The notes beneath the pieces are model-generated. The model saw only the letters and a list, made by a program, of their open reading frames with translations. It made no database searches and was not told the origin of the DNA. 64,000 nucleotides of DNA from Rhodococcus maanshanensis NBRC 100610. Its GTDB lineage: Bacteria > Actinomycetota > Actinomycetes > Mycobacteriales > Mycobacteriaceae. A program made the translations under genes and the position numbers. The stretch is taken from NCBI RefSeq assembly GCF_001894865.1, contig NZ_BCXA01000012.1, positions 1 to 64,000 of the forward strand, in the 5' to 3' direction. This document shows positions 5,902 to 38,406 of the stretch, one piece after another. Position 1 is the stretch's first letter. Each line of letters starts with the position of its first letter.

Positions 5902-6516
5902 ATGAAACTGACAGTCACCACCTTCGTCACCCTCGACGGCGTATACCAGGCTCCTGGTGGTCCCCAGGAGGACCCCAGCGACGGGTTCGTCCACGGGGGC
6001 TGGTCGGCGCCGTACGGCGACGAGGACTTCGGGCGGTTCATGACCGAGGTGTTCGACGAGGCGGACGCCTTTCTGCTGGGCCGGAAGACGTACGAGATCT
6101 TCGCGTCGTACTGGCCGCTCCAGACCGACCCCGCGCACCCGATCGCCACCAGGCTCAACACGCTGCCGAAGCACGTCGTCACCACCACTCTCGCCGCGGC
6201 CGACTGGCAGAACACGCGGCTGATCACCGGTGATCCCCGCGCGGCGATCGCCGCCCTCAAGGAGCGGGACGGCCGCGAGCTACAGGTCCACGGCAGCGGG
6301 GAGCTGGTGCGGTGGCTGTTGAAGGAGGGCCTGATCGACACGCTGCGCCTGCTGTCGTTCCCGGTCCTGCTCGGCACCGGGAAGCGGCTGTTCCCGACCG
6401 ACGCCCTGCCGACTGCCTATTCGTTGGTTCAGTCGCGGACCACGAGTACCGGTGTCGTCCTCAGCTCGTATGAGCGTTCGGGTGAGCCCGAGTACGGCGA
6501 CCTGGGAGAGGAGTAG
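5902..6516 (+). CDS. Dihydrofolate reductase family protein (RibD C-terminal domain)
   Basis: A 204 aa protein of the RibD-C/DHFR-like fold, found in many actinobacterial YwjB/YyaP-type reductases. The N-terminal strand reads MKLTVTTFVTLDGVYQAPG, with the conserved TLDG. FLLGRKTYEIFASYW lies near residue 55 and LQVHGSGELVRWLL near 130, both standard for the family. NADPH binding is expected; the substrate is unknown, and essential DHFR (FolA) or RibD function is not implied. It stands alone, 74 bp after the LysR gene and convergent with the enoyl-CoA hydratase. Confidence 0.8.
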   Translation: MKLTVTTFVTLDGVYQAPGGPQEDPSDGFVHGGWSAPYGDEDFGRFMTEVFDEADAFLLGRKTYEIFASYWPLQTDPAHPIATRLNTLPKHVVTTTLAAADWQNTRLITGDPRAAIAALKERDGRELQVHGSGELVRWLLKEGLIDTLRLLSFPVLLGTGKRLFPTDALPTAYSLVQSRTTSTGVVLSSYERSGEPEYGDLGEE

Positions 6517-6521
6517 CGGGA

Positions 6522-7208
6522 CTAGGCGGGGGTGCGCAGCTCCCCGAGCGCCGTGCGGAATCGGCGCTGCTTGATCGTGGCCAGGGTCGCGCCCGCCTTG
6601 GATGCGAGGCCCCTGGCGCGGTCCATCGCGGCGGACAGGACGGCCTGCTCGTCCACCGCCTCGTCGGCGATGCCCTCGGCGGTGGCCTCGGCCCCGCCGT
6701 AGCGCCTGCCGGTGGTCATGGCGTCATGCGCGGTCCGCACGGGGAGCTTGGCGGCAATCAGTTCGGACATGCCCACCGAGAAGGGGATCTGGATGTCGAC
6801 CTCGGGGAAGCAGAAGTACCCGCGGTCGGCGCGCATGACCCGCTGATCGTGGGCGAGCGCGAGCATGGCGCCCGCGCCGAAGGCATGTCCCTGCAGCGCC
6901 GCGACGGTCGGCAATCCCAGGGCGAGGACGCGGGCGAACAGGGCCTCGACCCGCGCGCTGAACGCCGGGATCTGGTCGGCGTTGGCCATCAACCACTGTA
7001 GGTCGAGGCCGTTGCTCCAGATCTTGCCCGTCGCGGTGGTGACCAGGGCCCTCGGACCCTCGGCGGCCTCGATCGCGTCGAGGTGCGCGTCGATCGAGTC
7101 GAGCCAGCCGGGGTTGAACCGGTTCTCGCCGGAGCCGAGGCTCAGCACGAAGACGTCGCCGTCGCGGTTGAGAGTGGGCAGGTCGTCGTGGGTGTTCAAG
7201 AATGTCAT
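6522..7208 (-). CDS. Enoyl-CoA hydratase/isomerase family protein
   Basis: A 228 aa crotonase-fold protein. The oxyanion-hole region KIWSNGLDLQWL (about 63-74) and the second block TVAALQGHAFGAGAMLALAHDQRVM (about 100-124) are typical. The usual first catalytic glutamate of enoyl-CoA hydratase is not obvious, and the sequence resembles plant/bacterial delta3-delta2 enoyl-CoA isomerase (ECI) proteins, so an isomerase is at least as likely as a hydratase. ATG 7208 is followed upstream by a palindrome and a divergent TetR gene, suggesting repression by that regulator, perhaps relieved by acyl-CoA. The frame stays open for a further 900 bp upstream, but that part is the shadow of the next gene. 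Confidence 0.85.
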   Translation of the reverse strand: MTFLNTHDDLPTLNRDGDVFVLSLGSGENRFNPGWLDSIDAHLDAIEAAEGPRALVTTATGKIWSNGLDLQWLMANADQIPAFSARVEALFARVLALGLPTVAALQGHAFGAGAMLALAHDQRVMRADRGYFCFPEVDIQIPFSVGMSELIAAKLPVRTAHDAMTTGRRYGGAEATAEGIADEAVDEQAVLSAAMDRARGLASKAGATLATIKQRRFRTALGELRTPA

Positions 7209-22999: not shown

Positions 23000-24090
23000 T
23001 CCGCGACGGCCCGCAGCGCCTCGAGGTCGGAGACCTCGAACGGCAACGACGGCACGCCGACCACCGGCACCCGGGGATGGGCGCCCGTGAACCGGCCGAG
23101 CAGCCGCAGCTCTCGCTGCGCGGTGCGGGCCCGCTCCGCGTGGATCCGCAGGACCGCCGCCGTCAACGGGTGCTCGCCCCGGTCCTTCAGCTGATCGGCC
23201 GCGGCCGTCGCCCGATCGGCCGACAGGGAGCTCAGGGTCGGATGGGTCCGGTTGAGCACCAGCCCGGCCAGCGGCATCCCCTCGGTGGACAGCCGGTCGA
23301 CGAAGAACGAGGCCTCGCGGAGCGCGTCCGGCTCGGCGGCCGCGATCACCAGGAAATGGGTGCCCTCCGCGCGCAGCAGCTGATAGGTGTGGTTGGCCCG
23401 CTCCCGGAACCCGCCGAACATCGACTCGAAGGACTGCACGAACGCCGATGCGTCGGACAGCATCTGGCTGCCCACGATGGTGTTCACGGCCTTGAGCGCC
23501 AGGCCCATCGCGCCGGTCACCAGGCGGCCGATCCCGCGGCCGGGAGCGGACAGCATCCGGATCATCCGGCCGTCGAGGAACGCGCCGAGGCGTTGCGGGG
23601 CATCGAGGAAGTCGAGCGCGTTGCGCGAGGGCGGGGTGTCCACGACCACCAGGTCCCACTCGTCGCTGGCGGCCAGCTGACCCAGCTTCTCCATGGCCAT
23701 GTACTCCTGCGTGCCCGAGAAGGAGGTGGCCACCGTTTGGTAGAAGGGGTTGGCGAGGATCTGCTGCGCGGTGTCGGGGGCGGAGTGCTCGAGCACCATG
23801 TCGTCGAACGTGCGACGCATGTTCAGCATCATCGCGTGCAGCTCACCGGTGGCGCCGGGAGCCAGCTGCACCGGCTGCGGTGAGTTGTCGAGTTCGCGCA
23901 CCCCGAGCGCTTGGGCGAGCCTGCGGGCCGGATCGATGGTGAGCACCACGACCCGGCGCCCCTCCTCGGCCGCGCGCAGCGCCATCGATGCGGCGGTGGT
24001 CGTCTTGCCGACGCCGCCGGCCCCGCAGCACACCACGATCCGGGACGCGGGGTCGGTGAGGATCGCGTCGATGTCGAGTGTCGTGGTCAT
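22978..24090 (-). CDS. ArsA/GET3-type P-loop ATPase (Rv3679/3680 pair, second gene)
   Basis: A 370 aa ATPase with deviant Walker [16 protein letters not shown] (about 18-32). [14 protein letters not shown] is the switch I-like block and [17 protein letters not shown] (about 150) the Walker B/switch II. Its position equals one member of the Rv3679-Rv3680 pair, proposed as anion-transporter-like ATPases. A TnpB element starts one base upstream of the ATG. An ATG inside the element (24141) would give an in-frame 17-residue extension after AGGAGG. The native start is preferred. Before the insertion, the ATG would have overlapped the arsA1 stop. Confidence 0.88.
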
Positions 24091-24200
24091 CAGGTGTTTG
24101 GCGCGGATACTCCGTCGTTCACGGGGGAGTGGGAGCGCCATCCTCCTATCGCGGGTTGTGTCGGGAAGGTTTGTCGGTGGCTGTGGCTACGTTGCCTGGT

Positions 24201-25355
24201 GTGGACGAGGTGGTGTGCTTCAGCTATCGGCTGCGGCCGGGTGTGGTAGCTGAACGCGCTCTGAACGCCGAGTGGCAAAGGTGCCGGTTCCTCTGGAACG
24301 AGGCTGTCCACCAACAGAAATCGGGCGGAAAGCCGACACTCGGGAAGCTGAGCAAAATCCTCACCGACGCTCGCTCCCGCAGCGGATGGTTGCGGGAAGG
24401 GTCGCAGGTCGCGCAGCAGCAGACGTTGCGCAACTACGCCCGCGCTCTCGGTCACTCGTTCACGGTGAAGGGTCGTGGCCGGCCGGCATTCAAATCCCGA
24501 AAGAAGACGCTGCCGTCGTTGGAGTACACGCGGCGGGGGTTCAGTCTCCGTGACGGTCGGCTGGTCCTGCCGAAGGGTGTCAGTGTTCCGGTGGTTTGGT
24601 CGCGGGAGTTGCCATCCGAACCGACCAGCGTGCGCATCTATCAGGATTCGCTCGGGCATTGGTACGCCTCGTTCGTCGTCCGTCGGGACGTCCTGCCCGC
24701 ACCGGAGGTCACGGGTGGGATCGGTGTCGACTGGGGTGTGAGCACGACGGCCACGACCACCGACACGGAGTTTGACCTGCCGTATCTCGGGCACCGCAAA
24801 CGCTGTGCCGGCGAACTCGCGAAGGCGCAACGGAAGATGGCGAGGCGCCACAGCGGGAAGCTTGGTCCGCAGTCCCACGGGTACCAGCGGGCAACGCGCG
24901 AGGCCGCGAAGTTGCACAAGAAGGCGGCCCGCCAGACCGCGCACGACAGCCGGGTGTGGGCGAAACGGGTAGTCGATCGGCATGACCTGATTGCGGTGGA
25001 GGACTTCAAGCCGACCTTTCTGGCGAGGTCGACGATGGCGCGCAAAGCTGCGGACGCGGCTATCGGTGCGGCGAAGCGGGAGTTGATCGAGCGTGGTGCG
25101 CGGGCTGGCCGGAAGGTGGTGTTGGTGCAGCCCGCCTATACGACGATGAAGTGTTCGAGTTGCTTTGCGAGAGCCAAGCAGCGATTCGGACTCGCCGAAC
25201 GAACCTTCCGATGCCCTGAGTGTGGCTTCACCGCAGGTCGGGACCGGAACGCTGCCAGGGTGATTCTGGCTGTGGCAGAACGCGGCCACATCGGTGTCGA
25301 CGACGTGAGACAAGCGGATCACCTCCTTCGGGTGGGTGGTTCGGTTGCGGTCTGA
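24201..25355 (+). CDS. tnpB: TnpB RNA-guided nuclease (OrfB), copy 1
   Basis: A 384 aa TnpB. RuvC catalytic residues are all present: Asp in GVDWGVSTT (about 182), Glu in AVEDFKP (about 272) and Asp in AGRDRNAA (about 352). The zinc ribbon is CSSC...CPEC (about 320-342). An N-terminal YRLRPGVVAERALNAEWQRCRFLWNEAV block matches the family's OrfB_IS605 N-domain. TnpB proteins cut DNA guided by an RNA from the element's right end; function is known for the family. GTG 24201 is chosen by alignment with copy 2; TTG 24192 is an alternative. It appears intact. Confidence 0.9.
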   Translation: MDEVVCFSYRLRPGVVAERALNAEWQRCRFLWNEAVHQQKSGGKPTLGKLSKILTDARSRSGWLREGSQVAQQQTLRNYARALGHSFTVKGRGRPAFKSRKKTLPSLEYTRRGFSLRDGRLVLPKGVSVPVVWSRELPSEPTSVRIYQDSLGHWYASFVVRRDVLPAPEVTGGIGVDWGVSTTATTTDTEFDLPYLGHRKRCAGELAKAQRKMARRHSGKLGPQSHGYQRATREAAKLHKKAARQTAHDSRVWAKRVVDRHDLIAVEDFKPTFLARSTMARKAADAAIGAAKRELIERGARAGRKVVLVQPAYTTMKCSSCFARAKQRFGLAERTFRCPECGFTAGRDRNAARVILAVAERGHIGVDDVRQADHLLRVGGSVAV

Positions 25356-27208: not shown

Positions 27209-27994
27209 ATGACCACGGCACATCCGGCGTACGCCCAGCTGCGCCAGGTCACCCCGATCGCGGCGGTGATGCTGGAGAACAACCCGGGCATGATGACGCT
27301 CGACGGCACCAACACCTGGATCCTGCGGGCGCCCGGCCGCGAGGAATGTGTGGTGATCGATCCGGGTGACGCCGACGAGGAGCACCTGTTGCGGGTGGCG
27401 GCCGTCGGCCCGGTGGCGCTGACCCTGATCACGCACCGGCACGGGGACCACACCGGTGGCGTGGAGCGGTTCGCCGCGCTCACCGGCAGTCCGGTCCGGT
27501 CCGTTGACCCGCGGTTCCGCACGCACACCGACGCGGGCCTGCCGGACGGCGAGCTCATCGAAGAGGTCGGTCTGGCGATCCGGGTGCTGCGAACTCCCGG
27601 GCACACCAAGGACTCGACCTCGTTCGTGATCGAGGGGGAGGGGTCGGTGCTGACCGGCGACACCATCCTCGGTCGGGGCACCACCGTCCTGGACGCCTCC
27701 GACGGCGATCTCGGCGACTACCTGGCCTCCCTGCGTGCGCTCATCGACCTGGGCACGGGCCGCGCGGTGCTGCCAGGGCACGGACCCGACCTGCCGGACC
27801 TGCAGACGGTGGCGCAGCAGTACCTGAGTCATCGCGAGGAGCGACTCGATCAGGTGCGTGCGGCGCTCGAGGTCCTCGGCGCCGACGCCGGCCCTCGTGC
27901 GGTGGTCGAGCACGTGTACTCCGACGTCGATCAGAGCCTGTGGCCGGTGGCCGAGCAGTCGGTGCGGGTGCAGTTGGAGTACCTGCGCCGCTGA
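27209..27994 (+). CDS. Metallo-beta-lactamase-fold hydrolase (Rv3677c-type)
   Basis: A 261 aa MBL-fold hydrolase of the LACTB2/glyoxalase-II-like group. The metal motif THRHGDHTGG (about 77-86) is HxHxDH. Further ligands are in RTPGHTKDS (about 133), LTGDTILGRGTT (about 150) and LPGHGPDL (about 190). ATG 27209 is chosen by the family N-terminus (PGMMTLDGTNTWI near 30). Substrate unknown. It ends before a strong terminator at 28008. Confidence 0.9.
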   Translation: MTTAHPAYAQLRQVTPIAAVMLENNPGMMTLDGTNTWILRAPGREECVVIDPGDADEEHLLRVAAVGPVALTLITHRHGDHTGGVERFAALTGSPVRSVDPRFRTHTDAGLPDGELIEEVGLAIRVLRTPGHTKDSTSFVIEGEGSVLTGDTILGRGTTVLDASDGDLGDYLASLRALIDLGTGRAVLPGHGPDLPDLQTVAQQYLSHREERLDQVRAALEVLGADAGPRAVVEHVYSDVDQSLWPVAEQSVRVQLEYLRR

Positions 27995-28007: not shown

Positions 28008-28043
28008 ATGGGTCACAAGACTGCTTGTCTTGTGACCCATTTT
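28008..28043 (+). terminator. Rho-independent terminator after the MBL gene
   Basis: A perfect 14-bp stem (ATGGGTCACAAGAC with GTCTTGTGACCCAT) with loop TGCTT is followed by TTTT. It closes the DUF4177-RidA-MBL operon and insulates the micro-peptide cluster downstream. Confidence 0.9.
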
Positions 28044-28194
28044 GCATTGGCCTACCTGCGCGTTTCGGGCAGGGGGTGCGGATTTCTGTGTAACCGCGCG
28101 TAACGGACGACTAGACATTTGCTACGCCTAACTAATAGCTTGGCGTCCGGCACGGTATGTGTGCCACGTCACAACGCGATGTTAGGAGTTCCCC

Positions 28195-28317
28195 ATGGGA
28201 TCCGTTGAGAACCTGCTCGATGCCAACGGCGCCGGTTTCGGCCTGCTCGACATGCTCAAGCTTCTCCCGCTGATGAAGGCCATCGAGGGCCTCGATTCCG
28301 TCAGCGCGGCGAACTGA
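28195..28317 (+). CDS. 40-residue peptide, tandem micro-protein 1
   Basis: ATG 28195 has AGGAG seven bases upstream. The frame encodes 40 aa: MGSVENLLDANGAGF, a hydrophobic/amphipathic middle (GLLDMLKLLPLMKAIEGL) and an end DSVSAAN. There is no signal peptide and no cysteine. It shares the start (M)xSVxxL with the next two small genes, which have the same size and strand. Codon third positions are GC-rich, as in real genes here. The pattern resembles, by size and layout only, the PorA/PorH channel peptides of corynebacteria, which lack signal peptides and are O-mycoloylated on Ser. No family is recognised. Confidence 0.7.
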   Translation: MGSVENLLDANGAGFGLLDMLKLLPLMKAIEGLDSVSAAN

Positions 28318-28344
28318 CCGACCGATCACGAACTGGAGACGACG

Positions 28345-28458
28345 ATGACCTCTGTCGAGAACCTCACCGAGCTGGTCAACTCGCTGACCACGCTGTTCAC
28401 CGGACTCAACTCGGGCTCGGCCGGCGCCGGTAGCGCGGGCGAGACCCCCAACCCGTAA
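28345..28458 (+). CDS. 37-residue peptide, tandem micro-protein 2
   Basis: ATG 28345 has GGAG six bases upstream. The frame encodes 37 aa: MTSVENLTELVNSLTTLFTG, then a small-residue tail rich in G, S and A ending ETPNP. The SVENL start is identical to peptide 1. Residues 4-22 would form an amphipathic helix; the tail offers several serines. It lies 27 bp after peptide 1 and is presumably co-transcribed. Unknown function. Confidence 0.7.
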   Translation: MTSVENLTELVNSLTTLFTGLNSGSAGAGSAGETPNP

Positions 28459-28501
28459 CGCCGGACCGCCGGCGGCACCCTCGACTTCTAGGAGTATGAC
28501 C

Positions 28502-28612
28502 ATGGGATCTGTTTCCGATCTGGGCGACGTGTTCAAGGCCCTCGTGCCGGTCCTCGGCGACCTGCTGGGCAACCTGGCCGGCGGCTCGCTGAGCCCGGTC
28601 GAGCCCAAGTAG
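28502..28612 (+). CDS. 36-residue peptide, tandem micro-protein 3
   Basis: ATG 28502 lies seven bases after AGGAG; an in-frame ATG at 28496 is too close to that site. The 36 aa product starts MGSVSDLGDVFKALVPVLGD and ends GGSLSPVEPK. It shares MGSV with peptide 1 and has a hydrophobic helix (VFKALVPVLGDLLGNLAG) with a charged end. It is the third of a tandem trio in one transcript, ended by the hairpin at 28640. Confidence 0.7.
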   Translation: MGSVSDLGDVFKALVPVLGDLLGNLAGGSLSPVEPK

Positions 28613-28639
28613 TCCCTGCGCTCCACGCGCACCCCACCG

Positions 28640-28688
28640 ACGGTCGCCGCGCGATCGGTCCATTCCGGCCCGATCCCGCGGCGACCGT
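28640..28688 (+). terminator. Hairpin terminator after the micro-peptide genes
   Basis: ACGGTCGCCGCG pairs with CGCGGCGACCGT (12 bp), with an inner GATCGG/CCGATC stem. No T-run follows. It lies between the third peptide and the LLM gene. Confidence 0.65.
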
Positions 28689-28752
28689 TGCGCATTCGGG
28701 CGGGGGCGACGACTGTTGACATCAGGCGCAGTCGAGACCGAGGAGCGCGGCG

Positions 28753-29655
28753 ATGACCGACTACGGGCGTCCACTGCAGTTCGGCATGTTCCCCACCCCG
28801 GATGCCGACCGGGTCGACGCGATCCTCGACCTCGTCCGGATGGCCGACGAGGAGGGCCTGGATCTCGTTGGCATCCAGGATCATCCGTATCAGAAGAGAT
28901 TCCTGGACACCTGGTCGCTGATGGCCGTCGTGCTCGCGCGCACCACCAGGATCCGCGTGTTCCCCGACGTGGCGAGCCTGCCGCTGCGGCCGCCTGCCGT
29001 GATGGCGAAGGCGGCCGCGAGTCTGGACGTGATCTCGGGCGGACGGTTCGAGCTGGCGGTCGGTGCGGGCGCGTTCTGGCAGGCGATCGGTGCGATGGGC
29101 GGGCCCGAACGGACCCCTGGCGAGGCCGCGGGCGCGTTGACGGAGGCCCTCGACGTCATCCGGCTGATGTGGTCCGGCGAGAAATCGGTGCGCTACGACG
29201 GCGCCCACTACCAGCTGTCCGGCGTGCACCCTGGACCGCGACCCGCCCACGACATCGGACTGTGGCTCGGGGTCGGCGGCCCGCGGATGCTCGGCGTGCT
29301 CGGCCGGGAGGCCGACGGCTGGGTCCCGTCGGTCAGCTACTTTCCGCCGCCGGTGCTGCCCGGCCTGCACGCGCGCATCGACGAGTCCGCGACGGCCGCC
29401 GGCCGCGACCCCGCGGCGATCCAGCGCATCTACAACGTGTTCGGGGCCATCACCGATGGACCGAGCGGCGGGTTCCTCAACGGGCCGGTGCAGCAGTGGG
29501 TCGACGAGCTGACCGGGTTGGTGCTCGAATCGGGCATGGACACCTTCGTGTTCGGCGCCGAGGGCGACGACCCGCACCAACACCGGAAATGGGCGGTGGA
29601 GGTGGTCCCGGCGGTTCGCGAGGCGGTCGCCCGGCATCGAGACATGCCCAAATAG
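28753..29655 (+). CDS. LLM-class (luciferase-like) flavin oxidoreductase
   Basis: A 300 aa bacterial-luciferase-like TIM barrel. LVRMADEEGLDLVGIQDHPYQ near 32-52, TTRIRVFPDVASLPLRPPAVMAK and SGGRFELAVGAGAFW are family blocks. In actinobacteria many such proteins use F420, which is plausible here but not shown. It is upstream of the aminomuconate cluster on the same strand, separated by 60 bp with a palindrome, so it may be independent. Substrate unknown. Confidence 0.85.
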   Translation: MTDYGRPLQFGMFPTPDADRVDAILDLVRMADEEGLDLVGIQDHPYQKRFLDTWSLMAVVLARTTRIRVFPDVASLPLRPPAVMAKAAASLDVISGGRFELAVGAGAFWQAIGAMGGPERTPGEAAGALTEALDVIRLMWSGEKSVRYDGAHYQLSGVHPGPRPAHDIGLWLGVGGPRMLGVLGREADGWVPSVSYFPPPVLPGLHARIDESATAAGRDPAAIQRIYNVFGAITDGPSGGFLNGPVQQWVDELTGLVLESGMDTFVFGAEGDDPHQHRKWAVEVVPAVREAVARHRDMPK

Positions 29656-29663
29656 CTATAGGG

Positions 29664-29679
29664 TGCGAGGAATTTCGCA
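29664..29679. promoter_or_regulatory. Candidate operator before the 3-hydroxyanthranilate cluster (TGCGA-N6-TCGCA)
   Basis: 5-bp inverted arms lie 37 bp before the first gene of the cluster. The half-site TCGCATT recurs as AATGCGA upstream of the LysR gene at 36515. This suits control of both promoters by that LysR protein. Inferred. Confidence 0.45.
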
Positions 29680-29715
29680 TTTGTTCGGCATGGATCGACG
29701 GCCAATCATGGGTCC

Positions 29716-31191
29716 ATGACCACATCGCGCGAAGCCTGGATTCGCAATTACGTGGACGGCGGCTTCGTCGACCCGGACCCGGAGCGAAGTTTCGAGAACC
29801 TCGACCCGGCCACCGGCCGGCTGGTGGCCCGGGTGCACGAGGCGGACATCGCTCTCGTCGACCGCGCCGTGCGATCGGCGCGGCGCGCGCTGGACAACGG
29901 TTGGGCCGACACCCCCGTGCGGGAACGTGCGGCCCTGCTGCGGCGGGCGGCAGACCGGATCGAGGAGCGCTTCGAGGAGTTCGTCGCGGCCGAGATGGCC
30001 GACACGGGTAAGCCGATCACGCAGGCCCGCGAGCTCGACGTGGCCCGCGCGCTGACCAACTTCCGCACCTTCGCGGACGTGGTCGCCGCCGCGGGCCAGG
30101 AGTCGTTTCTCACCGACCTCGCGGGTGGTCGGCAGGCGTTGAACTACGCGGTGCGCAAGCCGTTGGGCGTGGTTGCGGTGATCGTGCCGTGGAACCTGCC
30201 GCTGCTGCTGCTCACCTGGAAGGTGGCGCCCGCGCTGGCCTGTGGCAACGCCGTCGTCGTCAAGCCGAGCGAGGAAACCCCGTCCACCGCAACGCTGCTC
30301 GCGGAGGTGCTGGAGGAGGTCGGACTCCCGGCCGGCGTCTACAACGTCGTGCACGGTTTCGGCCGGGACTCGGCAGGGGAGTTCCTGACGGATCATCCCG
30401 GCATCGACGGCGTCACCTTCACCGGGTCGTCCGCGACCGGCTCGCACGTGATGAAGACCGTGGCGCCGCGGGTCCGGCCGGTCTCCTTCGAGCTCGGCGG
30501 CAAGAACGCCGCCGTGGTGTTCGACGACGTCGACGTCGACGAGGCCCTCACCGGGCTGACCCGGTCGGTCTTCGCCAACACCGGGCAGGTGTGCCTGTGC
30601 ACCGAGCGGGTGTACGTCCAGCGCGGCGTGTTCGACGACATCGCGGCCGGGCTGGTCGAGCGTGCCGAGGGGCTTCGTCTCGGTGCGCCGGCCGACACCG
30701 CGACCACGACCGGTCCGCTGATCTCCCAGGCCCATCGCGAGAAGGTCCGCGACTACTTCGAGATCGCCGAGCAGGCCGGGGCCAAGGTGCTCACCGGCGG
30801 CGGGATCCCCGCGCTCGGCGAGGGCCTCGCCGGCGGCTCCTGGATCGAGCCGACGCTGTGGACCGGGCTGACGAATGCCGATCGCGCAGTGCGCGAAGAG
30901 ATCTTCGGTCCGGTCGCGGCACTGATCCCCTTCGACACCGAGGAGGAGGCGATCGCGCTCGCCAACGACACCGAATACGGACTCGCCGCGGCGGTCTGGA
31001 CGAACGACCTGCGCCGTGGGCACCGCGTCGCGCAGCAGATGCGGGTCGGCATCTCCTGGGTGAACACCTGGTTCACCCGCGAACTCCGCTCCCCGTTCGG
31101 CGGCGCGGGACTCTCCGGGATCGGCCGCGAGGGCGGCGAATCCTCCCTCCACTTCTATACCGAACCCACGAATGTGTGCGTGCAACTGTGA
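29716..31191 (+). CDS. 2-aminomuconate 6-semialdehyde dehydrogenase (aldehyde dehydrogenase)
   Basis: A 491 aa NAD-dependent aldehyde dehydrogenase. VIVPWNLPLLLLTWKVAPAL, the FTGSSATGSHV Rossmann block, FELGGKN (catalytic Glu, about 257) and NTGQVCLCTERVY (catalytic Cys, about 291) are all present. EIFGPVAALIPF lies near 394. It belongs to the hydroxymuconic/aminomuconic semialdehyde group. Its place as first gene before the amino-muconate deaminase, 3-hydroxyanthranilate dioxygenase and ACMS decarboxylase sets the reaction: aminomuconate semialdehyde to 2-aminomuconate. Equivalent to NbaE/AmnC. Confidence 0.88.
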   Translation: MTTSREAWIRNYVDGGFVDPDPERSFENLDPATGRLVARVHEADIALVDRAVRSARRALDNGWADTPVRERAALLRRAADRIEERFEEFVAAEMADTGKPITQARELDVARALTNFRTFADVVAAAGQESFLTDLAGGRQALNYAVRKPLGVVAVIVPWNLPLLLLTWKVAPALACGNAVVVKPSEETPSTATLLAEVLEEVGLPAGVYNVVHGFGRDSAGEFLTDHPGIDGVTFTGSSATGSHVMKTVAPRVRPVSFELGGKNAAVVFDDVDVDEALTGLTRSVFANTGQVCLCTERVYVQRGVFDDIAAGLVERAEGLRLGAPADTATTTGPLISQAHREKVRDYFEIAEQAGAKVLTGGGIPALGEGLAGGSWIEPTLWTGLTNADRAVREEIFGPVAALIPFDTEEEAIALANDTEYGLAAAVWTNDLRRGHRVAQQMRVGISWVNTWFTRELRSPFGGAGLSGIGREGGESSLHFYTEPTNVCVQL

Positions 31192-31234
31192 CTGTGACAT
31201 CGGGAACGACAGTGGACAGGGAGAGTGAGAAGTG

Positions 31235-32005
31235 ATGCCGCTCAACATGATCGATATCGAAGGCCTCTGCGACCGTCTGGACCGCGCCCAGCGGACCGTC
31301 ACTGACACGCCCAGCCTCGCGGACAGCCATGAGGTCGACATCGACGATGCCTACCGGATCCAGAACGCGCTGATCGGCCGCAGGCTGGGCCGGGGCGAAT
31401 CGATTGTCGGGGTGAAGCTGGGATTCACCAGCAAGGCGAAGATGGCCCAGATGGGTGTCTCCGACGTGATCGTCGGGCAGCTCACCGATGCCATGCGCAT
31501 CGAGGACGGCGGCGACGTCGACCTGACCCGGTTCATCCACCCGAAGATCGAGCCGGAGATCGCCTACCGGCTCGCCCGCGACGTGGATCCGGGCGATCCG
31601 GCCGTGGACGTCGTGTCCTGTGTGGACGCGGTCGCGCCCGCGATGGAGATCATCGACTCGCGCTACCGGGACTTCCGCTTCACGTACACCGACGTGGTGG
31701 CCGACAACACCTCCGCCGCCGGCTATGTCATCGGCCCCTGGCAGCGGATGCAGGACGTCGACGACCGCGAGGTACGCCTCGAGGTGGGCGCGGACGCCGT
31801 GCTGGGATCCACGTCGGCGATTCTGGGCGATCCCGTCCGCGCGCTGCACGCGCTGGTCGACATGGCCCGGCGGCGCGCGATCCCGCTGCGCGCGGGGCAG
31901 GTGGTCCTCGCAGGGGCGGCCACCGCGGCGGTCGCGCTGACCGCCGAGGTCGCGCAGTGCCACATCGCCGGTCTCGGCCGAGTCAGCGTGAAGGGGACGA
32001 GATGA
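31235..32005 (+). CDS. 4-oxalocrotonate decarboxylase-like (hydratase/decarboxylase family)
   Basis: A 256 aa member of the MhpD/XylJ-DmpH-XylI family. [17 protein letters not shown] (about 52-68), [12 protein letters not shown] (about 103-114) and a divalent-metal-binding acid set are conserved. The 'GVKxGFTSxAKMxQMGV' block favours 4-oxalocrotonate decarboxylase (2-oxo-3-hexenedioate to 2-oxopent-4-enoate) over the hydratase. Cluster context agrees, since the preceding enzyme product would be 4-oxalocrotonate. The start could be GTG 31232 or ATG 31235; its 3' end overlaps the deaminase gene. Confidence 0.8.
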
Positions 32006-32457
32006 CCGACGCCAAGGTGATCGACCGGCTCGCGACACCGCGGGGCCGGTTCCCGCACGTGAAGGTCGCAGGCGATTTCGTCTACGTCTCGGGAACCAGT
32101 TCGCGACGCCAGGACAATACGTTCGTCGGCGTCGAGGTCGACGAGATGGGCACAACCGCGCTCGACATCCGCGCACAGACACGCGCGGTCATCGAGAACA
32201 TGCGCGCCATCCTCGCCGAGGTCGGGGCCGAGCTCGGCGACCTGGTCCAGGTCACCTCGTACCTGGTGTCGATGAACGACTTCGGCGGCTACAACGAGGT
32301 ATACGCCGAACTGTTCGACGAGAACGGGCCGACCCGGACCACCGTCGCGGTGCACCAGTTGCCGCATCCGCACCTGCTCATCGAGATGCAGGGTGTCGCA
32401 TACCGACCCGTCGCTCGCCCGCCGCACCCAACCACCGCATCGGAGGCCCTGTCATGA
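32002..32457 (+). CDS. 2-aminomuconate deaminase (RidA family)
   Basis: A 151 aa RidA/YjgF-fold protein. [20 protein letters not shown] near 24-43 and [25 protein letters not shown] near 80-104 are present. This type hydrolyses 2-aminomuconate to 4-oxalocrotonate and ammonia (NbaF/AmnD). ATG 32002 overlaps the preceding gene by 4 bp and its own stop overlaps the dioxygenase by 4 bp, so the operon is tightly coupled. It is separate in sequence from the RidA protein at 26629. Confidence 0.88.
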
Positions 32458-32975
32458 CCCGAGTCCCGCAGACCATCAACTTCCAGAAGTGGATCGCCGA
32501 CAACGAGCACCTGCTCAAGCCCCCGGTGAACAACCAGACCATGGCGCTCGGCAGCGACTTCATCGTCCAGGTCGTCGGCGGGCCGAACCAGCGCACGGAC
32601 TACCACCTGGACCCCTACGAGGAGTGGTTCTACCAGATCAAGGGCGACATCCACGTCGACGTCATGACCGAGAACGGCCCCGAGAGGGTGCACATTCGCG
32701 AGGGCGAGACATGGTTGTTGCCGGGGAATCTGCCTCACTCACCGCAGCGCCCGACCGCGGGCTCGATCGGTCTGGTCATCGAGCGGGTGCGCGAGGAGGG
32801 GACCCTGGAGAAGTTCCAGTGGTACTGCATGAACTGCGACGCGCTCATCTACGAGGTCGAACTGCAGGTCAGGGACATCGTCGCCGACCTTCCCCCGGTC
32901 TTCACCTTGTTCTACGACAGCGTCGACGCCCGCACCTGCGCGAGCTGCGGAACCCTCCATCCGGGCAAGGGGTGA
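32454..32975 (+). CDS. 3-hydroxyanthranilate 3,4-dioxygenase
   Basis: A 173 aa cupin extradiol dioxygenase. It opens 3-hydroxyanthranilate to 2-amino-3-carboxymuconate semialdehyde. [18 protein letters not shown] (about 43-60) provides the first iron His and Glu, and [14 protein letters not shown] (about 84-97) the second His. Two C-terminal CxxC pairs (CMNC and CASC, about 123-161) form the rubredoxin-like iron site of bacterial enzymes. NbaC/HaaO type; normal length. Confidence 0.93.
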
Positions 32976-32978
32976 GAC

Positions 32979-33974
32979 GTGAGCGGAATGATCGACGTCC
33001 ACACCCATTACGTGCCGAAAGGGTGGCCCGACCTGACGTCGGACGCGGGACCGGAGGCGCCGTGGCTGCGGATCGAATCCGAGTCCGAGGCGATGATCAT
33101 GATGGGCACCAAGGAGTTCCGCCGGATCCAGGCGGACGCCTGGGACGCCGAAACCCGGTTGCGGGACATGGACGCGGACGGTGTGCACACGCAGGTGGTC
33201 TCGCCGACCCCGGCGTTCTTCAACTACGGGCGCACCGGCGCGCAGGGGGAGCGGATCGCGCGGATCTTCAACGACCTCGCCCTGGAGATCGTCGCACCCG
33301 CCCCGGATCGCCTGATCCCGTTCTGCCAGGTCCCGTTGCAGGACACCGATGCCGCGTGCCGTGAGCTCGAGCGGTGCATCGCCAACGGGCACCGGGGCGT
33401 CGAGATCGGCAACCATGTCGGCGACCTGGACCTCGACAGCGAGGGCGTGGTCACGTTCCTGCAGCACTGCACGTCGCTGGACGTGCCGGTGTTCGTGCAC
33501 CCGTGGGACATGGCGAGCTCCCCTCGGCTGGATCGGTGGATGGCGCAGTGGTTGACCGCGATGCCGTCCGAGACCCATCTCTCCATACTTGCGTTGATCC
33601 TCGGCGGCGTGTTCGACCGGATCGACGAGAGCCTGAAGATCGGATTTGCCCACGGCGGTGGATCTTTCGCGTTCTGGCTGGGGAGGATGGAGAACGCCTG
33701 GCACGGTCGGAACGACGTGATCGGCACGTCGGAGTTCCCGCCGTCGCACTACCTGGGTCGCTTCTACGTGGACTCCGTGGTCTTCGACGAACGGGCGTTG
33801 CGCTTGCTGGTCGACACCGTCGGCGTCGAGCGGGTGATGGTGGGCAGCGACTACCCCTACCCGCTGGGGGAGCGGCCGGTCGGAGAAGTGGTGCGCAAGA
33901 GTGAGTGCCTCGATGACGCTGCGCGGCAATTGATTTCCCATGGAAACGCCGAGCGGTTCCTGGGGCTGGGCTGA
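32979..33974 (+). CDS. 2-amino-3-carboxymuconate-6-semialdehyde decarboxylase (ACMSD)
   Basis: A 331 aa amidohydrolase-fold decarboxylase. The Zn motif DVHTHYVPKGWPDL is at residues 6-19 and the later HPWD (about 172) and GSDYPYP (about 290-296, catalytic Asp) are conserved. FAHGGGSFAFWLGR supplies another metal histidine. It follows the dioxygenase by 3 bp and completes the ring-cleavage pair: ACMS to aminomuconate semialdehyde plus CO2. NbaD type. The start is GTG 32979; ATG 32988 is possible. Confidence 0.92.
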   Translation: MSGMIDVHTHYVPKGWPDLTSDAGPEAPWLRIESESEAMIMMGTKEFRRIQADAWDAETRLRDMDADGVHTQVVSPTPAFFNYGRTGAQGERIARIFNDLALEIVAPAPDRLIPFCQVPLQDTDAACRELERCIANGHRGVEIGNHVGDLDLDSEGVVTFLQHCTSLDVPVFVHPWDMASSPRLDRWMAQWLTAMPSETHLSILALILGGVFDRIDESLKIGFAHGGGSFAFWLGRMENAWHGRNDVIGTSEFPPSHYLGRFYVDSVVFDERALRLLVDTVGVERVMVGSDYPYPLGERPVGEVVRKSECLDDAARQLISHGNAERFLGLG

Positions 33975-34058
33975 TCGGATCGGCGCCCGGTTCGTCGGGG
34001 CGGTCCGGCGCGCCGGCTATGACCAAATGGGCATGGAAGATCGGCGAATCGGCATTTG

Positions 34059-34074
34059 TGTGTCATGGCTCACA
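34059..34074. promoter_or_regulatory. Crp-like site upstream of the MFS gene
   Basis: TGTGT-CATGGC-TCACA differs from TGTGA-N6-TCACA by one base. It lies about 90 bp before the MFS start. Catabolite-type control by the Crp protein encoded at 37655 is possible; weak on its own. Confidence 0.35.
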
Positions 34075-34163
34075 CGGTGAGACTGTGATCAGCAACGCAC
34101 GCACCCTGTTTGCGTCACCATCGGTCCCCACATCCGCTGTCTCCCAACATGATAGGTCCCACG

Positions 34164-35498
34164 ATGAACGAGAATCCGGAACCCGGCCCCGCCGCGGCGG
34201 CCCGCAGTCGGGTGGCCATGGCCACCCTCGCGGGCACGACCCTCGAGTGGTACGACTTCTTCCTCTACGGCACCGCGGCCGCGCTCATTTTCAACAAGCA
34301 GTTCTTTCCCAGCCTGAGCCCGTCGGTCGGCACCCTCGCGGCCTTCAGCACCTTCGCCGTCGGCTTCGTCGCCCGACCCCTCGGTGGCCTGGTGTTCGGC
34401 CACTTCGGTGACCGAATCGGCCGCAAGGCCACCCTGGTCGTCTCGCTCGTGATGATGGGCATCGGGTCCACGCTCATCGGGCTGATCCCGAACTACGACT
34501 CGATCGGGTTCTGGGCCCCGGTGCTGCTGGTGGCGCTGCGGATCGTGCAGGGCATCGGCCTCGGCGGGGAGGGCGCGGGCGCCACCCTGATGTCGATGGA
34601 GCACGCGCCCGAGGGTAAGAAGAACCTCTATGCCGGCTTCCCGCAGATGGGGACGCCTGCCGGTCTCGTGCTCGCCAACGCCATCTTCCTGACCACGAAC
34701 GCGGTGCTCCCGGACGAGGCCTTCGCGTCGTGGGGCTGGCGTATCCCGTTCCTGCTGAGCTTCGTGCTCGTCGCGATCGGCCTGGTGATCAGGCTTCGGG
34801 TGACGGAATCACCGTCGTTCGCTGGGGTTCTCGAGAAGGGTGATGTGGTCCGTTTCCCGCTGCGGGAGTCGCTGAAGGTCGGGTTCCCCCGACTCTCCCT
34901 GACCCTGCTCGCGGTGGTGGCCAACTCCGCGGTCGCGTACGCCTTCATGGTGTTCACCCTGTCCTACGGCACCCAGCACCTCGGATACGGCAAGCAGTTC
35001 CTGGTGCTGTGCGTGACCGCGGCGGCCGTGCTGTGGTTCGCGAGCATCCCGTTCTGGACGATGGTCGCGGACCGCTACGGCAGGCGGACGATGTTCATCG
35101 CCGGATCGGCGGCGATCCTGCTGTGGTGCATCGCGTTCCTCCCGCTGCTCAACACCGAGAACTCGGTGCTCGCGGTCATCGCGTTCCTCGGCATGGGCCT
35201 GATCGTCCCTGTCACGCACTGCGTGCAGGGCAGCATCATCGCGGACACCTTCCCGGCGCGGGTGCGCTATTCGGGCTCGTCGCTGATCCTGCAGACCGCA
35301 GCCATCCTCGGTGGCGGCCTCGCGCCGATGATCTCGACGGCGCTGCTGAACGCCACGGGATCGTCGGCCGGCGTCACCTGGTACCTGGTGATCATCTGCT
35401 CGATCAGCCTTGCGGGCGCGATCGCGCTGTTCCGGCTGGTGCCGTCGACGTCGCGCGGGCCGCAGGCCGCGACCGCGCAGGAGCACGCGCACGCGTAG
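34164..35498 (+). CDS. MFS transporter, MHS type (aromatic acid/metabolite:H+ symporter)
   Basis: A 444 aa, 12-helix symporter. MATLAGTTLEWYDFFLYGTAAALIF at the N-terminus and GHFGDRIGRKA are MHS signatures. ATG 34164 is chosen over ATG 34149 because MHS proteins have short polar leaders; no strong RBS distinguishes them. It lies 189 bp after the aminomuconate operon on the same strand, so it probably imports a cluster substrate such as 3-hydroxyanthranilate, anthranilate or kynurenine. Followed by a strong hairpin. Confidence 0.87.
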   Translation: MNENPEPGPAAAARSRVAMATLAGTTLEWYDFFLYGTAAALIFNKQFFPSLSPSVGTLAAFSTFAVGFVARPLGGLVFGHFGDRIGRKATLVVSLVMMGIGSTLIGLIPNYDSIGFWAPVLLVALRIVQGIGLGGEGAGATLMSMEHAPEGKKNLYAGFPQMGTPAGLVLANAIFLTTNAVLPDEAFASWGWRIPFLLSFVLVAIGLVIRLRVTESPSFAGVLEKGDVVRFPLRESLKVGFPRLSLTLLAVVANSAVAYAFMVFTLSYGTQHLGYGKQFLVLCVTAAAVLWFASIPFWTMVADRYGRRTMFIAGSAAILLWCIAFLPLLNTENSVLAVIAFLGMGLIVPVTHCVQGSIIADTFPARVRYSGSSLILQTAAILGGGLAPMISTALLNATGSSAGVTWYLVIICSISLAGAIALFRLVPSTSRGPQAATAQEHAHA

Positions 35499-35520
35499 GA
35501 CCGGCGAGTCATCGCACTCT

Positions 35521-35559
35521 CGACGAGCCGCTCATCCCCGACGGGTGGGCGGCTCGTCG
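35521..35559. terminator. Bidirectional hairpin between MFS and LysR genes
   Basis: An 11-bp perfect stem (CGACGAGCCGC with GCGGCTCGTCG) and 17-base loop separate the convergent genes. Confidence 0.75.
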
Positions 35560-35582
35560 CCGTCGGCGCGACGGCGACGAGC

Positions 35583-36515
35583 TCACCGACCGGGCGGGGC
35601 GATCTCCGCGGCGATCCGACGCAGATTGCCCACCAGTGCCTCGGCAGACGGGCTGAGGGTGCGGCCGGGGGAGAGGGTGATCCCGACGCTGTGCCCGATC
35701 GGATCCAGCGCCACCGGGAGCGTGGTCAGCCGGGCGTCGTCGCGCGGGATCAGGCTCGGCAGCACGGCGATCATGTCGGTCTCGATGAGCAGCTGGCGGA
35801 CGGTGAGGAACGACGTGGCCTCGACCCGGTTCGCGGGCAGGGGCATGCCGTTCCTGGCGAAGAACTCCTCCAGCTCGCGGCGCAGCGACGTCTCGGTGCC
35901 GGGCAGGATCCAGGGGTAGTCGGCCAGGTCGGCGAGCGTCAGGCTGTCGAGCTCGGCCAGCGGATGGCGGGCGCGGGTGACGAGTTCCACCGATTCCTCG
36001 TAGAGGGTGTCGCGGATGGCGGACTGGTCGGTGGGGGAGGTGAGCCGGCCGACGATCAGGTCGACCCGGCCGGCCTCGAGCTCGACGAGCAGGGTCTCGG
36101 GGGTGCCCTCCCGCACGATCACCGTGAGCAGGGGCCGCTCCACCTTCAGTCGCGCGATCGCGCCGGGGAGCAGGACGTTCGAACCGGCGAGGTGGGTGCC
36201 GACCACCACGGTCCCGCGATCCGCTTCGGCCAGCTCGAAGACGTGCCTGCCCGCCTGTGTCAGCTGTGCGATGACGGCCCTCGCGTGTGCGGTGAAGGCC
36301 TCGCCGAAGATCGTCGGGGTGATGCCGCGCGGGCCCCGCTCGTACAGTTCCACTCCGAGGATCGACTCCAGGTCGTGCAGGCTGCGGGTGGCCACCGGCT
36401 GGGTCACGTGGAGCGCCGCGGCGGCACCGACCACGCTGCCCTGCTTCGTCAGCGCATCGACGAGCACGAGGTGTCGCAGCTTCAGCCGCCCGTCGAGCAG
36501 TTTGGGTATGTCCAT
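35583..36515 (-). CDS. LysR-family regulator of the 3-hydroxyanthranilate cluster
   Basis: A 310 aa LysR-type regulator. HTH: GSVVGAAAALHVTQPVATRSLHDLESILGVELYERG (about 26-61). The effector domain follows with normal length. It resembles the PcaQ/GalR-like group (the motif LSPSAEALVGNLR near the end). Encoded convergent to the MFS gene and flanking the catabolic cluster, it is the likely activator, comparable to NbaR. A TCGCATT half-site lies upstream of its start and before the first pathway gene. Confidence 0.87.
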   Translation of the reverse strand: MDIPKLLDGRLKLRHLVLVDALTKQGSVVGAAAALHVTQPVATRSLHDLESILGVELYERGPRGITPTIFGEAFTAHARAVIAQLTQAGRHVFELAEADRGTVVVGTHLAGSNVLLPGAIARLKVERPLLTVIVREGTPETLLVELEAGRVDLIVGRLTSPTDQSAIRDTLYEESVELVTRARHPLAELDSLTLADLADYPWILPGTETSLRRELEEFFARNGMPLPANRVEATSFLTVRQLLIETDMIAVLPSLIPRDDARLTTLPVALDPIGHSVGITLSPGRTLSPSAEALVGNLRRIAAEIAPPGR

Positions 36516-36593
36516 GCGGCCGAGCCTATCGGGATCTGGAGCCCTGGCAATAGCTGAATGCGACAGTTCTCGGTCCGCGCTATGCTCTTTCGG

Positions 36594-37472
36594 CTATGGC
36601 AGGGCGCGGGCGGCGGAGTGCCGTTCTGCGAGCCCGTCGATCATCCGGACGAGGGCGCGGTTGAGCGTGGTGGTGGGGTCGGCAAGATCGAGAAAGATGT
36701 CGTAATGGTTGCGATCGGGAACGACGAGCAGGGTGCAGGCGGAGTGTTCGGCCCAGGCGTCGTGGAACCGCTTGGTCTGCGTGCGGAACCCGGCGCCGTC
36801 GCGGTCCGCAACCGCGATCACGGCCGTCGGTCCCGGTCCGTCCGCGAGAAGCAGTGGGCTCAGCGCCCGCGCGCGCTCGATGTCGAGCCCGAGCCATTCG
36901 TTCGCGAACGAGTCCACGAGCGGGCGGAGGTCGAACAGTCCGCTGATCGGCATGGCACCACGCACGACGTTCTCGGGTAGGCCGAGGGGTTGCTGCCAGC
37001 CGGGGACCATGAGGGTGCCGGTGAGGTGCCCCCCTGCGGAGCTGCCGCCGACGACGATCCGATCGGGGTCGAGCCCATGGTCGGCGCCGTGGTGGTAGAC
37101 CCAAGCGACCGCAGCTCGGACCTGGCGGACGATCTCCTCGAGCGGCGTCTCCGGCGCGAGGCCGTAGTCGACGGTGACGGTGGCGATGCCCTCGCTGTCG
37201 AGGGCGCGCGCCATGAAGGCCGTGTGATGTCGGGACAGGGCGCGCCAGTAGCCGCCGTGGATGGCGACGAACACCGGCCTCGGCTCGTCGGAGGTTCCCC
37301 ACACGTCCAGTTTCTGCTGGCTGTGCGGGTCGTAGTAGATGTCGGTGAATCCGCGCAGGCCCCGTACCGCGCTCTCGGATCGGGCCAGGTACTCGGCGAT
37401 GATCTCGTCGAAGAGCTCCGGCGAGACGGTGTTCCGGACGTTGTACTCGACGTCGGTCTGCGGGTCGGACAT
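36594..37472 (-). CDS. Kynurenine formamidase-like alpha/beta hydrolase
   Basis: A 292 aa alpha/beta hydrolase. The oxyanion HGGYW motif (about 73-77), nucleophile GSSAGG (about 142-147), Asp in ADRDGAG (about 222) and His near RNHYD (about 250) match the arylformamidase (AFMID, HGGxW) group. Immediate proximity to the 3-hydroxyanthranilate genes supports N-formylkynurenine hydrolysis. No tryptophan dioxygenase, kynurenine hydroxylase or kynureninase is in the window, so this remains a family- and context-based call. ATG 37472 has a weak GGAATGGG site. Confidence 0.75.
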   Translation of the reverse strand: MSDPQTDVEYNVRNTVSPELFDEIIAEYLARSESAVRGLRGFTDIYYDPHSQQKLDVWGTSDEPRPVFVAIHGGYWRALSRHHTAFMARALDSEGIATVTVDYGLAPETPLEEIVRQVRAAVAWVYHHGADHGLDPDRIVVGGSSAGGHLTGTLMVPGWQQPLGLPENVVRGAMPISGLFDLRPLVDSFANEWLGLDIERARALSPLLLADGPGPTAVIAVADRDGAGFRTQTKRFHDAWAEHSACTLLVVPDRNHYDIFLDLADPTTTLNRALVRMIDGLAERHSAARALP

Positions 37473-37605
37473 CAGATGCCCATTCCGGGATGCCCGTGGT
37501 GCAACGGATCTCATCCCTCGATACTGCGGTCTCGGTCCCATGCCTGTCGAATGCGAATTCCGCTCTCGGATATGCCCCTACGCCTATATGGACGGGCCAC
37601 AACGC

Positions 37606-37654: not shown

Positions 37655-38329
37655 TTACCGCGCGCGGCGGGCCAGGCGCTCCGAGTCGGAGATCAGCACG
37701 CTCTTGCCCTCGAGGCGCAGCCAGCCGCGGTGCGCGAAGTCGGCGAGCGCCTTGTTCACGGTCTCGCGGGAGGCGCCGACCAGCTGGGCGATCTCTTCCT
37801 GGGTGAGGTCGTGCGTCACGCGCAGCGACCCGGCCTCCTGGGTGCCGAAGCGCTGGGCGAGCTGCAGCAGCGCCTTGGCGACACGGCCGGGGACGTCGGT
37901 GAAGATCAGGTCCGCGAGGTTGTTGTTGGTGCGGCGCAGGCGACGGGCCAGCACGCGCAGCAGCTGCTCCGCGATCTCGGGGCGCTGATCGATCCACGAC
38001 TTCAGGGCGTCGCGGTCCATCTGCACGGCGCGGACCTCGGTCACCGTGGTTGCGGTGGAGGTACGCGGGCCCGGGTCGAAGATCGAGAGCTCACCGAACA
38101 TGTCGGAGGGGCCCATGATGGTCAGCAGGTTCTCGCGACCGTCGGGGGAGCGGCGTCCGAGCTTCACCTTGCCGGACACGATGATGTACAGCCGATCACC
38201 GGGCTCGCCCTCGTTGAAGATCACGTGCCCGCGAGGGAAGTCGACCGGCTGCAGCTGCTTGACCAGCGCGGCCACCGCCGACGGTTCGACTCCCTGGAAG
38301 ATTCCGGCTCTGGCCAGGATCTCGTCCAC
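37655..38329 (-). CDS. crp: cAMP receptor protein (Crp/Fnr family)
   Basis: A 224 aa global regulator, nearly identical in layout and length to M. tuberculosis Crp (Rv3676). Residues 1-115 are the cyclic-nucleotide domain, with [20 protein letters not shown] (the cAMP-binding E and R). The C-terminal [31 protein letters not shown] is at about 170-198. The start is GTG 38329 (VDEILARAG), eight bases after AAGGAG. Consensus site TGTGA-N6-TCACA; a perfect copy is in this window at 51373. Highly conserved position between the MBL/RidA and nth genes. Confidence 0.95.
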
Positions 38330-38386
38330 GTGTGCTCCTTCTTCGGGTCGTTGGGGGACGCCATCGTGTGGTCTCCCCCGACGTGA

Positions 38387-38406
38387 TCGACGCAAGATCG
38401 CGTCGA
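38387..38406. promoter_or_regulatory. Palindrome upstream of crp (TCGACGC-N6-GCGTCGA)
   Basis: Perfect 7-bp inverted arms with a 6-base spacer lie 58 bp before the crp start. Not a Crp consensus. Candidate operator for an unidentified regulator of crp. Confidence 0.5.

Follow-up and report, generated by a model that had tools for sequence, protein, structure and literature searches.

What might be encoded by three very short tandem genes that are enclosed between two hairpins in the genome of an actinomycete? The question is raised by 64,000 nucleotides of Rhodococcus maanshanensis NBRC 100610 (contig NZ_BCXA01000012.1, positions 1 to 64,000; the whole stretch is referred to here as the window), in which a first-pass annotation, made from the sequence alone, had pointed to three neighbouring open reading frames (ORFs; here P1, P2 and P3) and had likened their products to the PorA/PorH channel peptides of corynebacteria. 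Based on the comparative evidence presented here, the three ORFs are real genes under purifying selection between relatives, and they belong to a conserved gene cluster that is apparently undescribed. We propose, by analogy and not from a demonstrated homology, that the products are signal-less helical peptides of the mycomembrane, which may be mycoloylated and may form a PorA/PorH-like alpha-helical channel; we judge the chances of this reading to be about even. In the literature consulted, channels made of small helical peptides and the O-mycoloylation of proteins are described for Corynebacterium, and those Rhodococcus channels whose genes are known are of the MspA type (PMC9233653, PMC11066868, PMC5310785). 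With a conserved peptide operon in five genera including Rhodococcus, and a remnant of it beside a Cmt1-type mycoloyltransferase gene in one genome, mycoloylation and peptide channels outside Corynebacterium become directly testable in common laboratory strains; genes so short easily escape annotation and bottom-up proteomics.

Three conserved short genes, with purifying selection between relatives

All three ORFs are present where they had been described (Table 1), with similar lengths, good ribosome-binding sites (RBS), gaps of 27 nt (P1-P2) and 43 nt (P2-P3), and the shared starts MGSV, MTSV and MGSV. In the whole window, 12 ORFs of 30-60 amino acids (aa) have an ATG and a strong RBS; three of them begin with M(G/T)S, and these are P1-P3. 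Only the start of P3, originally set at 28496, had to be replaced: its RBS stands 1 nt from that position and 7 nt from the ATG at 28502, which also gives the M(G/S)S start of the aligned P3 homologues, and P3 is therefore taken as a 36-aa peptide. The GC content at third codon positions is 0.85, 0.92 and 0.89 in P1, P2 and P3, respectively, and 0.90 in the two neighbouring genes checked. The enclosure of the set by two strong hairpins was also borne out, the downstream one being a probable terminator without a T-run; the region 28630-28700 that includes it folds at about -45 kcal/mol. As for RNA elements, Rfam gave a single match, in which the terminator hairpin was assigned to a microRNA family far below the gathering score; it was taken as chance. 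In an alignment of leaders, the core TGYGCCRCGTCAYA upstream of P1 is common to the window and four Rhodococcus genomes, and is not clear in three genomes of the window's own genus (G002-G004). The rest of the P1 leader is little conserved between the window and Rhodococcus.

The distribution of these genes was followed with profiles in three overlapping draws of family genomes (401, 401 and 396). At E 0.05 a four-sequence P1 profile gave matches in 16 of 401 genomes, of which 11 were kept and G029, dropped at first, was later examined and added (G058, G158, G215 and G224 were dropped). With the P3 profile 21 of 401 genomes were matched and again 11 kept; matches at E >= 0.0024 (G025, G066, G081, G147, G154, G224, G279, G354, G393 and G400) were dropped, as were the weak additional matches found in G094 and G129. 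A 13-row profile of P1 and its duplicate P0 matched 13 of 396 genomes at E 0.02, 12 of them convincingly, the match in G354 covering a mere 22 positions of a frame of 582 aa; G029 was not among these matches and may not have been drawn. With P1 in 12 of the 396 genomes of this draw, the genes are patchily distributed in the family, and the carriers belong to five genera of one family: g1 (that of the window), g23, g10, g4 and g14. P1 occurs in four of the 28 genomes of g23, the genus of the carriers known by name (Rhodococcus globerulus NBRC 14531, Rhodococcus sp. P-2 and R. erythropolis NBRC 15567), which were the three relatives among 44 pattern matches when named genomes were scanned with the P1 alignment. 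Order-wide, P3 was found in one of 348 genomes from 79 genera, that of the window; since the known Rhodococcus carriers were evidently absent from this draw, the taxonomic limit was tested weakly.

The order P1-P2-P3 is kept in the window, two g10 genomes, four g23 genomes, one g4 and one g14 genome. P0 precedes P1 in g10, g4 and g14, and g23 has an additional gene, P4 (48 aa in R. erythropolis, where P1-P4 occupy positions 6001-6965 of locus L066), about 360-380 nt downstream; a P4 search matched 13 of 381 genomes at E 0.01, of which nine, all g23, were kept (G154, G211, G325 and G364 were dropped). In one g23 genome (G121, locus L058, upstream of position 6907) P3 and P4 persist, P2 is broken and P1 was not found, as in a decaying operon. 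The flanking genes, scanned at one locus per genus, vary: a divergent ATP-binding cassette (ABC) exporter pair and a GGDEF protein in g23, an arginine deiminase and an amino-acid permease in g10, CrcB and a thioesterase-domain ORF in g4, and a phosphomannomutase in g14. The conserved unit thus consists of the peptides themselves, 36-40 aa long in the window and 35-52 aa in relatives. The alignments contain invariant residues in P1 (M, G, S, N11, a D and a S), in P2 (M, T, S, N6, L7, G and S) and in P3 (M, S3, V10, P, V, D20 and GGS), with one invariant serine near the helix end or behind it in each case (D..S in P1, GS in P2, GGS in P3). That P1 to P4 form a single family could not be shown, the best hhalign probability against P3 being 30% (P2).

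Selection was measured as the ratio of non-synonymous to synonymous substitution rates (dN/dS, Nei-Gojobori) in pairs from g23 and g10, the window's own genes being in no pair. Pooled over the operon, it amounts to 0.205, 0.189 and 0.119 in three g23 pairs and 0.328 in one g10 pair, against 0.68 to 5.8 for a shifted-frame control on the same DNA, which omits genes of unequal length. Single-gene values spread more: the value for P3 of G129/G182 is 0.67, from few changes, and the pair P-2/G244 differs by no synonymous change in P4. The frames are conserved in relatives and dN/dS is 0.12-0.33 rather than near 1, two points on which the first-pass annotation had staked its proposal; the window genes are themselves regarded as coding because their sequence and order are conserved across genera. 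No significant match was obtained in Pfam (P1-P3 and seven relatives), NCBIfam (P1-P3; best E 0.049, an unrelated family) or among PDB sequences (P1 and P3 profiles; best E 0.2), and no description of the operon was found in the titles and abstract beginnings of the open-licence papers listed by the literature searches.

A putative channel of the mycomembrane

The comparison with PorA/PorH is the best-supported reading of these genes, partly supported and still an analogy. PorA/PorH of Corynebacterium are likewise signal-less helical peptides of 37-57 aa (40 aa in PorACj, 37 aa in PorACur), encoded in mycolate bacteria by a tandem operon that is bounded by terminators (PMC5310785, PMC3792995, PMC5944148). 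Single-gene versions exist in both systems, PorACj on one side and the lone P1 of G003 and G004 on the other. The differences are that three to four genes occur here instead of one or two, that the window operon is not at the groEL2-ppk2 site of porH/porA (only a P1 remnant in G029 is beside groEL), and that the operon usually coexists with MspA porins. Within this comparison, the size, the tandem operon, the predicted helix with a Ser/Gly tail and the absence of a visible signal sequence in P1-P3 (judged by reading and not by a prediction program) are supported, and the context in G029 can be added; similarity in sequence is not supported by the one profile comparison made.

An amphipathic character of the helix is evident in P2 and P3, and not clearly so in P1. 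Compared with shuffled sequences, the helical moment is clear in P2 (z 2.5-3.7) and P3 (z 2.7-3.5; four genomes each), and P4 reaches z 2.1, with -0.3 and 1.2 for P0. Comparators were sought at twelve PPK2-gene loci from six genomes taken, by inference from the locus, as Corynebacterium. Suitable small ORFs before PPK2 were present at two loci, L073 (groEL end in view) and L074 (without it), L076 and L077 having groEL and no suitable small ORF; three ppk2-adjacent peptides from two genomes gave z 2.3-4.1. AlphaFold2 predicted helices 3-10 and 17-39 in P1 (mean pLDDT 73.5) and one helix 3-28 with a loose tail in P3 (mean pLDDT 74.6; blocks of 76, 88 and 75 over residues 1-30), the only two peptides modelled; as single-chain models of short helices, they carry little weight. 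PorA/PorH have themselves been modelled with AlphaFold-multimer (PMC12632848).

A further pointer comes from G029 (genus g25), in which a groEL is followed on the same strand by the gene of a mycoloyltransferase of 402 aa, by a P1 in truncated form and by a short frame, and then by two small ORFs, each with an RBS. The best PDB match of the mycoloyltransferase is Cmt1 (E 4e-82, compared with 1.2e-47 for PS1 and 3e-32 for antigen 85). The P1 remnant gives a 28-residue ungapped match with window P1 (score 79; maximum 44 in 1000 shuffles) and, by BLASTP as a single comparison, 10 of 20 identical residues at E 5e-6. Among seven other P1 sequences, five were equalled in 0 of 1000 shuffles, G002 in 16 and G094 in 502. 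The short frame downstream of the remnant resembles, by reading, the C-terminus of the mycoloyltransferase, with no Pfam match. Corynebacterial porH/porA adjoin groEL2 (PMC3792995, PMC5944148). The enzyme that mycoloylates proteins in C. glutamicum is Cmt1; about 30 candidate substrates are attributed to it, it acts mostly on Ser in a flexible Gly/Ser/Ala context, and it has orthologues in Rhodococcus and Nocardia (PMC11066868); porin assembly needs it (PMC12632848). The invariant serines and the Cmt1 homologue of G029 are only suggestive of O-mycoloylation, and we treat this single genome, with its broken P1, as a pointer and not as proof. The two small ORFs downstream of the Cmt1 homologue (L106, 7293-7418 and 7590-7715; 41 aa each, Ser/Gly-rich, with good RBS) possibly encode further small envelope peptides; over all 22 comparisons made with them, the lowest value was that of the first ORF with the L073 peptide (7 of 400 shuffles).

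The mechanism that we propose would run as follows. One conserved operon, P0/P1-P2-P3 with P4 in addition in Rhodococcus, would provide mycomembrane peptides that leave the cell without a Sec signal, by the same route as PorA/PorH. A mycoloyltransferase of the Cmt1/MytC type would O-mycoloylate the invariant serines, and the peptides would then insert in the mycomembrane and assemble into a hetero-oligomer, in which P2 and P3 would supply the amphipathic pore-lining helices and P1 a more hydrophobic partner. The mycolates of Rhodococcus have 30-54 carbons (PMC9233653).

Several observations weigh against this scheme. The helical moment of P1 is at chance level (z -0.8 in the window, -0.9 to 1.7 across seven genomes). 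The link to Cmt1, itself suggestive, consists of one genome with a truncated P1 and a groEL that may be groEL1 or groEL2, and 18 comparisons of the two small G029 ORFs with P1-P4 gave nothing convincing (lowest, 11 of 400 shuffles). The hhalign probability of the P3 profile with one peptide of a groEL-ppk2 locus (putative Corynebacterium) is 6%, a weak test because PorACur and PorACj themselves share 10% identical residues (PMC5944148). In the window's own genus the operon is absent from two of six genomes and reduced to an intact P1 in three, and it is therefore dispensable. Finally, 12 of the 13 carriers tested encode MspA porins as well, so that the need for a further porin is not obvious.

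MspA-family porins (PF09203; PorARc, PorARr and PorBRr), to which the channels identified in R. corynebacteroides and in R. ruber have been assigned (PMC9233653), are proteins of about 20 kDa with a signal peptide, unlike P1-P3; PF09203 gave no significant match for P1-P3 or seven relatives. They were found in 16 of 22 genomes tested, namely in all carriers except G208 and in four of nine others. A replacement of MspA by the peptides was rejected on these counts, and in most carriers the peptides would rather supplement it. The window's own genome has 19 MspA matches in about 15 genes (four frames having two matches each); G001 has 19, G003 11, G005 10 and G121 6, with one or two in eleven others and none in six, and subtypes often stand two side by side.

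The same porins, together with a P1 that is hydrophobic and not clearly amphipathic, would also suit mycoloylated mycomembrane peptides with a structural or anchoring role, which would tie the mycomembrane to the cell wall in the manner of ProtX, a likewise small, mycoloylated mycomembrane protein of C. glutamicum (PMC5310785, PMC12632848). Since the helices of P2 and P3 are amphipathic like those of channel peptides, and several different peptides are encoded per operon as in porH-porA, we consider such a non-channel role possible and rather unlikely.

Secreted amphipathic peptides of the surfactant type, for which phenol-soluble modulins offer the comparison, are improbable in our view. Tandem peptides of 35-52 aa, signal-less by reading and near-neutral to acidic, would be in keeping with them, as would the ABC exporter pair divergent to the operon in Rhodococcus; however, the scanned flank ORFs of g10, g4 and g14 include no exporter (the amino-acid permease of g10 aside), and the Gly/Ser tails and invariant Ser would be left unexplained. 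Short helical proteins without a signal are often inner-membrane or cytosolic regulators, and P1-P4 might in the same way regulate a membrane complex; this is scarcely probable, as no neighbouring membrane complex is common to the scanned flanks and as three to four different peptides with Ser/Gly tails are kept together. A leaderless multi-peptide bacteriocin or membrane toxin set is very improbable, because, although several tandem leaderless helical peptides are the arrangement of four-peptide leaderless bacteriocins, these are cationic and accompanied by immunity or transport genes, whereas the net charge of 18 operon peptides is -6 to +1 (with no cysteine), nine flank ORFs at four loci include no immunity gene, R. 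erythropolis P1 has no match among plasmids nor window P3 among phages, and six peptides gave nothing significant in PHROGs (best E 0.24). The toxin or signal set that the first-pass annotation had offered as its alternative finds little support in the same data, the nine ORFs being also without a common antitoxin or exporter gene.

Returning to the channel, we tentatively suggest that three or four different peptides of 35-52 aa may build, outside Corynebacterium, another class of outer-membrane channel that is likewise alpha-helical, mycoloylated and composed of several subunits. Lichtinger et al. (2000; J Bacteriol 182:764) reportedly described a solvent-extracted channel protein of 8.4 kDa from R. 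erythropolis, with a partial sequence of 45 residues; it comes from a species that carries this operon and, to our knowledge, has never been assigned to a gene. The class suggested here could be the source of this low-mass channel, and among the operon products of that species presumably only P4 (48 aa) could accommodate the 45 residues. The R. erythropolis channel is cited among mycolata channels (PMC3792995).

The locus in the window and its genus

Table 1. Features at and around the peptide genes (positions in the window)
Feature	Position	Strand	Remarks
MBL-fold hydrolase-like gene	27212-27994	+	metallo-beta-lactamase (MBL) fold; NCBIfam matches below cut-off; synteny anchor, present in 6/6 genus genomes
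Hairpin terminator 3' of MBL-fold gene	28008-28040	+	14 pairs, T-rich tail
Leader element ATGTGTGCCACGTCACAA	28157-28174	+	possible promoter or regulatory site, proposed from sequence
P1 RBS AGGAG	28184-28188	+
P1 gene	28195-28317	+	40-aa peptide MGSVENLL...LDSVSAAN
P2 RBS GGAG	28335-28338	+
P2 gene	28345-28458	+	37-aa peptide MTSVENL...SGSAGAGSAG; amphipathic helix, Gly/Ser tail
P3 RBS AGGAG	28490-28494	+
P3 gene	28502-28612	+	36-aa peptide MGSVSDL..VPVLGDLL..GGS; start corrected
Long hairpin 3' of P3, probable terminator	28640-28688	+	22-nt arms, 91% complementary, no T-run
crp-like regulator	37655-38395	-	NCBIfam CRP match below cut-off

The genus sample comprised six genomes including that of the window, and the loci of the relatives were found by synteny through the MBL gene; when the genus was searched with the single P1 sequence, nothing was returned apart from the window itself and one match in a frame of 1275 aa, taken as chance. 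An intact P1 lies 3' of the MBL gene in four of the six (the window, G002, G003 and G004). In the last three it is a 38-aa version with a GTG or TTG start, and the gene that follows the peptide gene, or what remains of the set, is crp (matched by reading to that of the window): G002 has a 5'-truncated P2 and a frame-shifted P3 between P1 and crp, and G003 and G004 have P1 alone. G001, whose MBL protein is 99% identical, is without the segment from the MBL stop to the leader of an LLM oxidoreductase gene, and G005 is likewise without the operon segment. The presence of P1 beside crp in G002-G004 suggests that the operon is old at the MBL-crp site and has been several times lost or eroded. The same arrangement upholds the earlier placement of the set at a backbone/insert junction, since the same MBL gene and crp enclose the P1 homologue in these genomes and about 9 kb of further genes intervene in the window.

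In the window the operon is located between the MBL-fold gene and the LLM oxidoreductase. The latter belongs to the block of about 9 kb between operon and crp (28753-37541), which also includes, among others, a 2-hydroxymuconic semialdehyde dehydrogenase, a hydratase/decarboxylase-like gene and a 3-hydroxyanthranilate 3,4-dioxygenase, and which probably serves tryptophan/anthranilate catabolism. The first two genes of this block are present in the stretch read of G001, and in that of G005 the LLM gene is followed by crp. Further upstream in the window (24078-25355), an ORF for a TnpB-family RNA-guided endonuclease (NCBIfam guided_TnpB, above cut-off) is flanked by two genes that are ArsA-like by reading.
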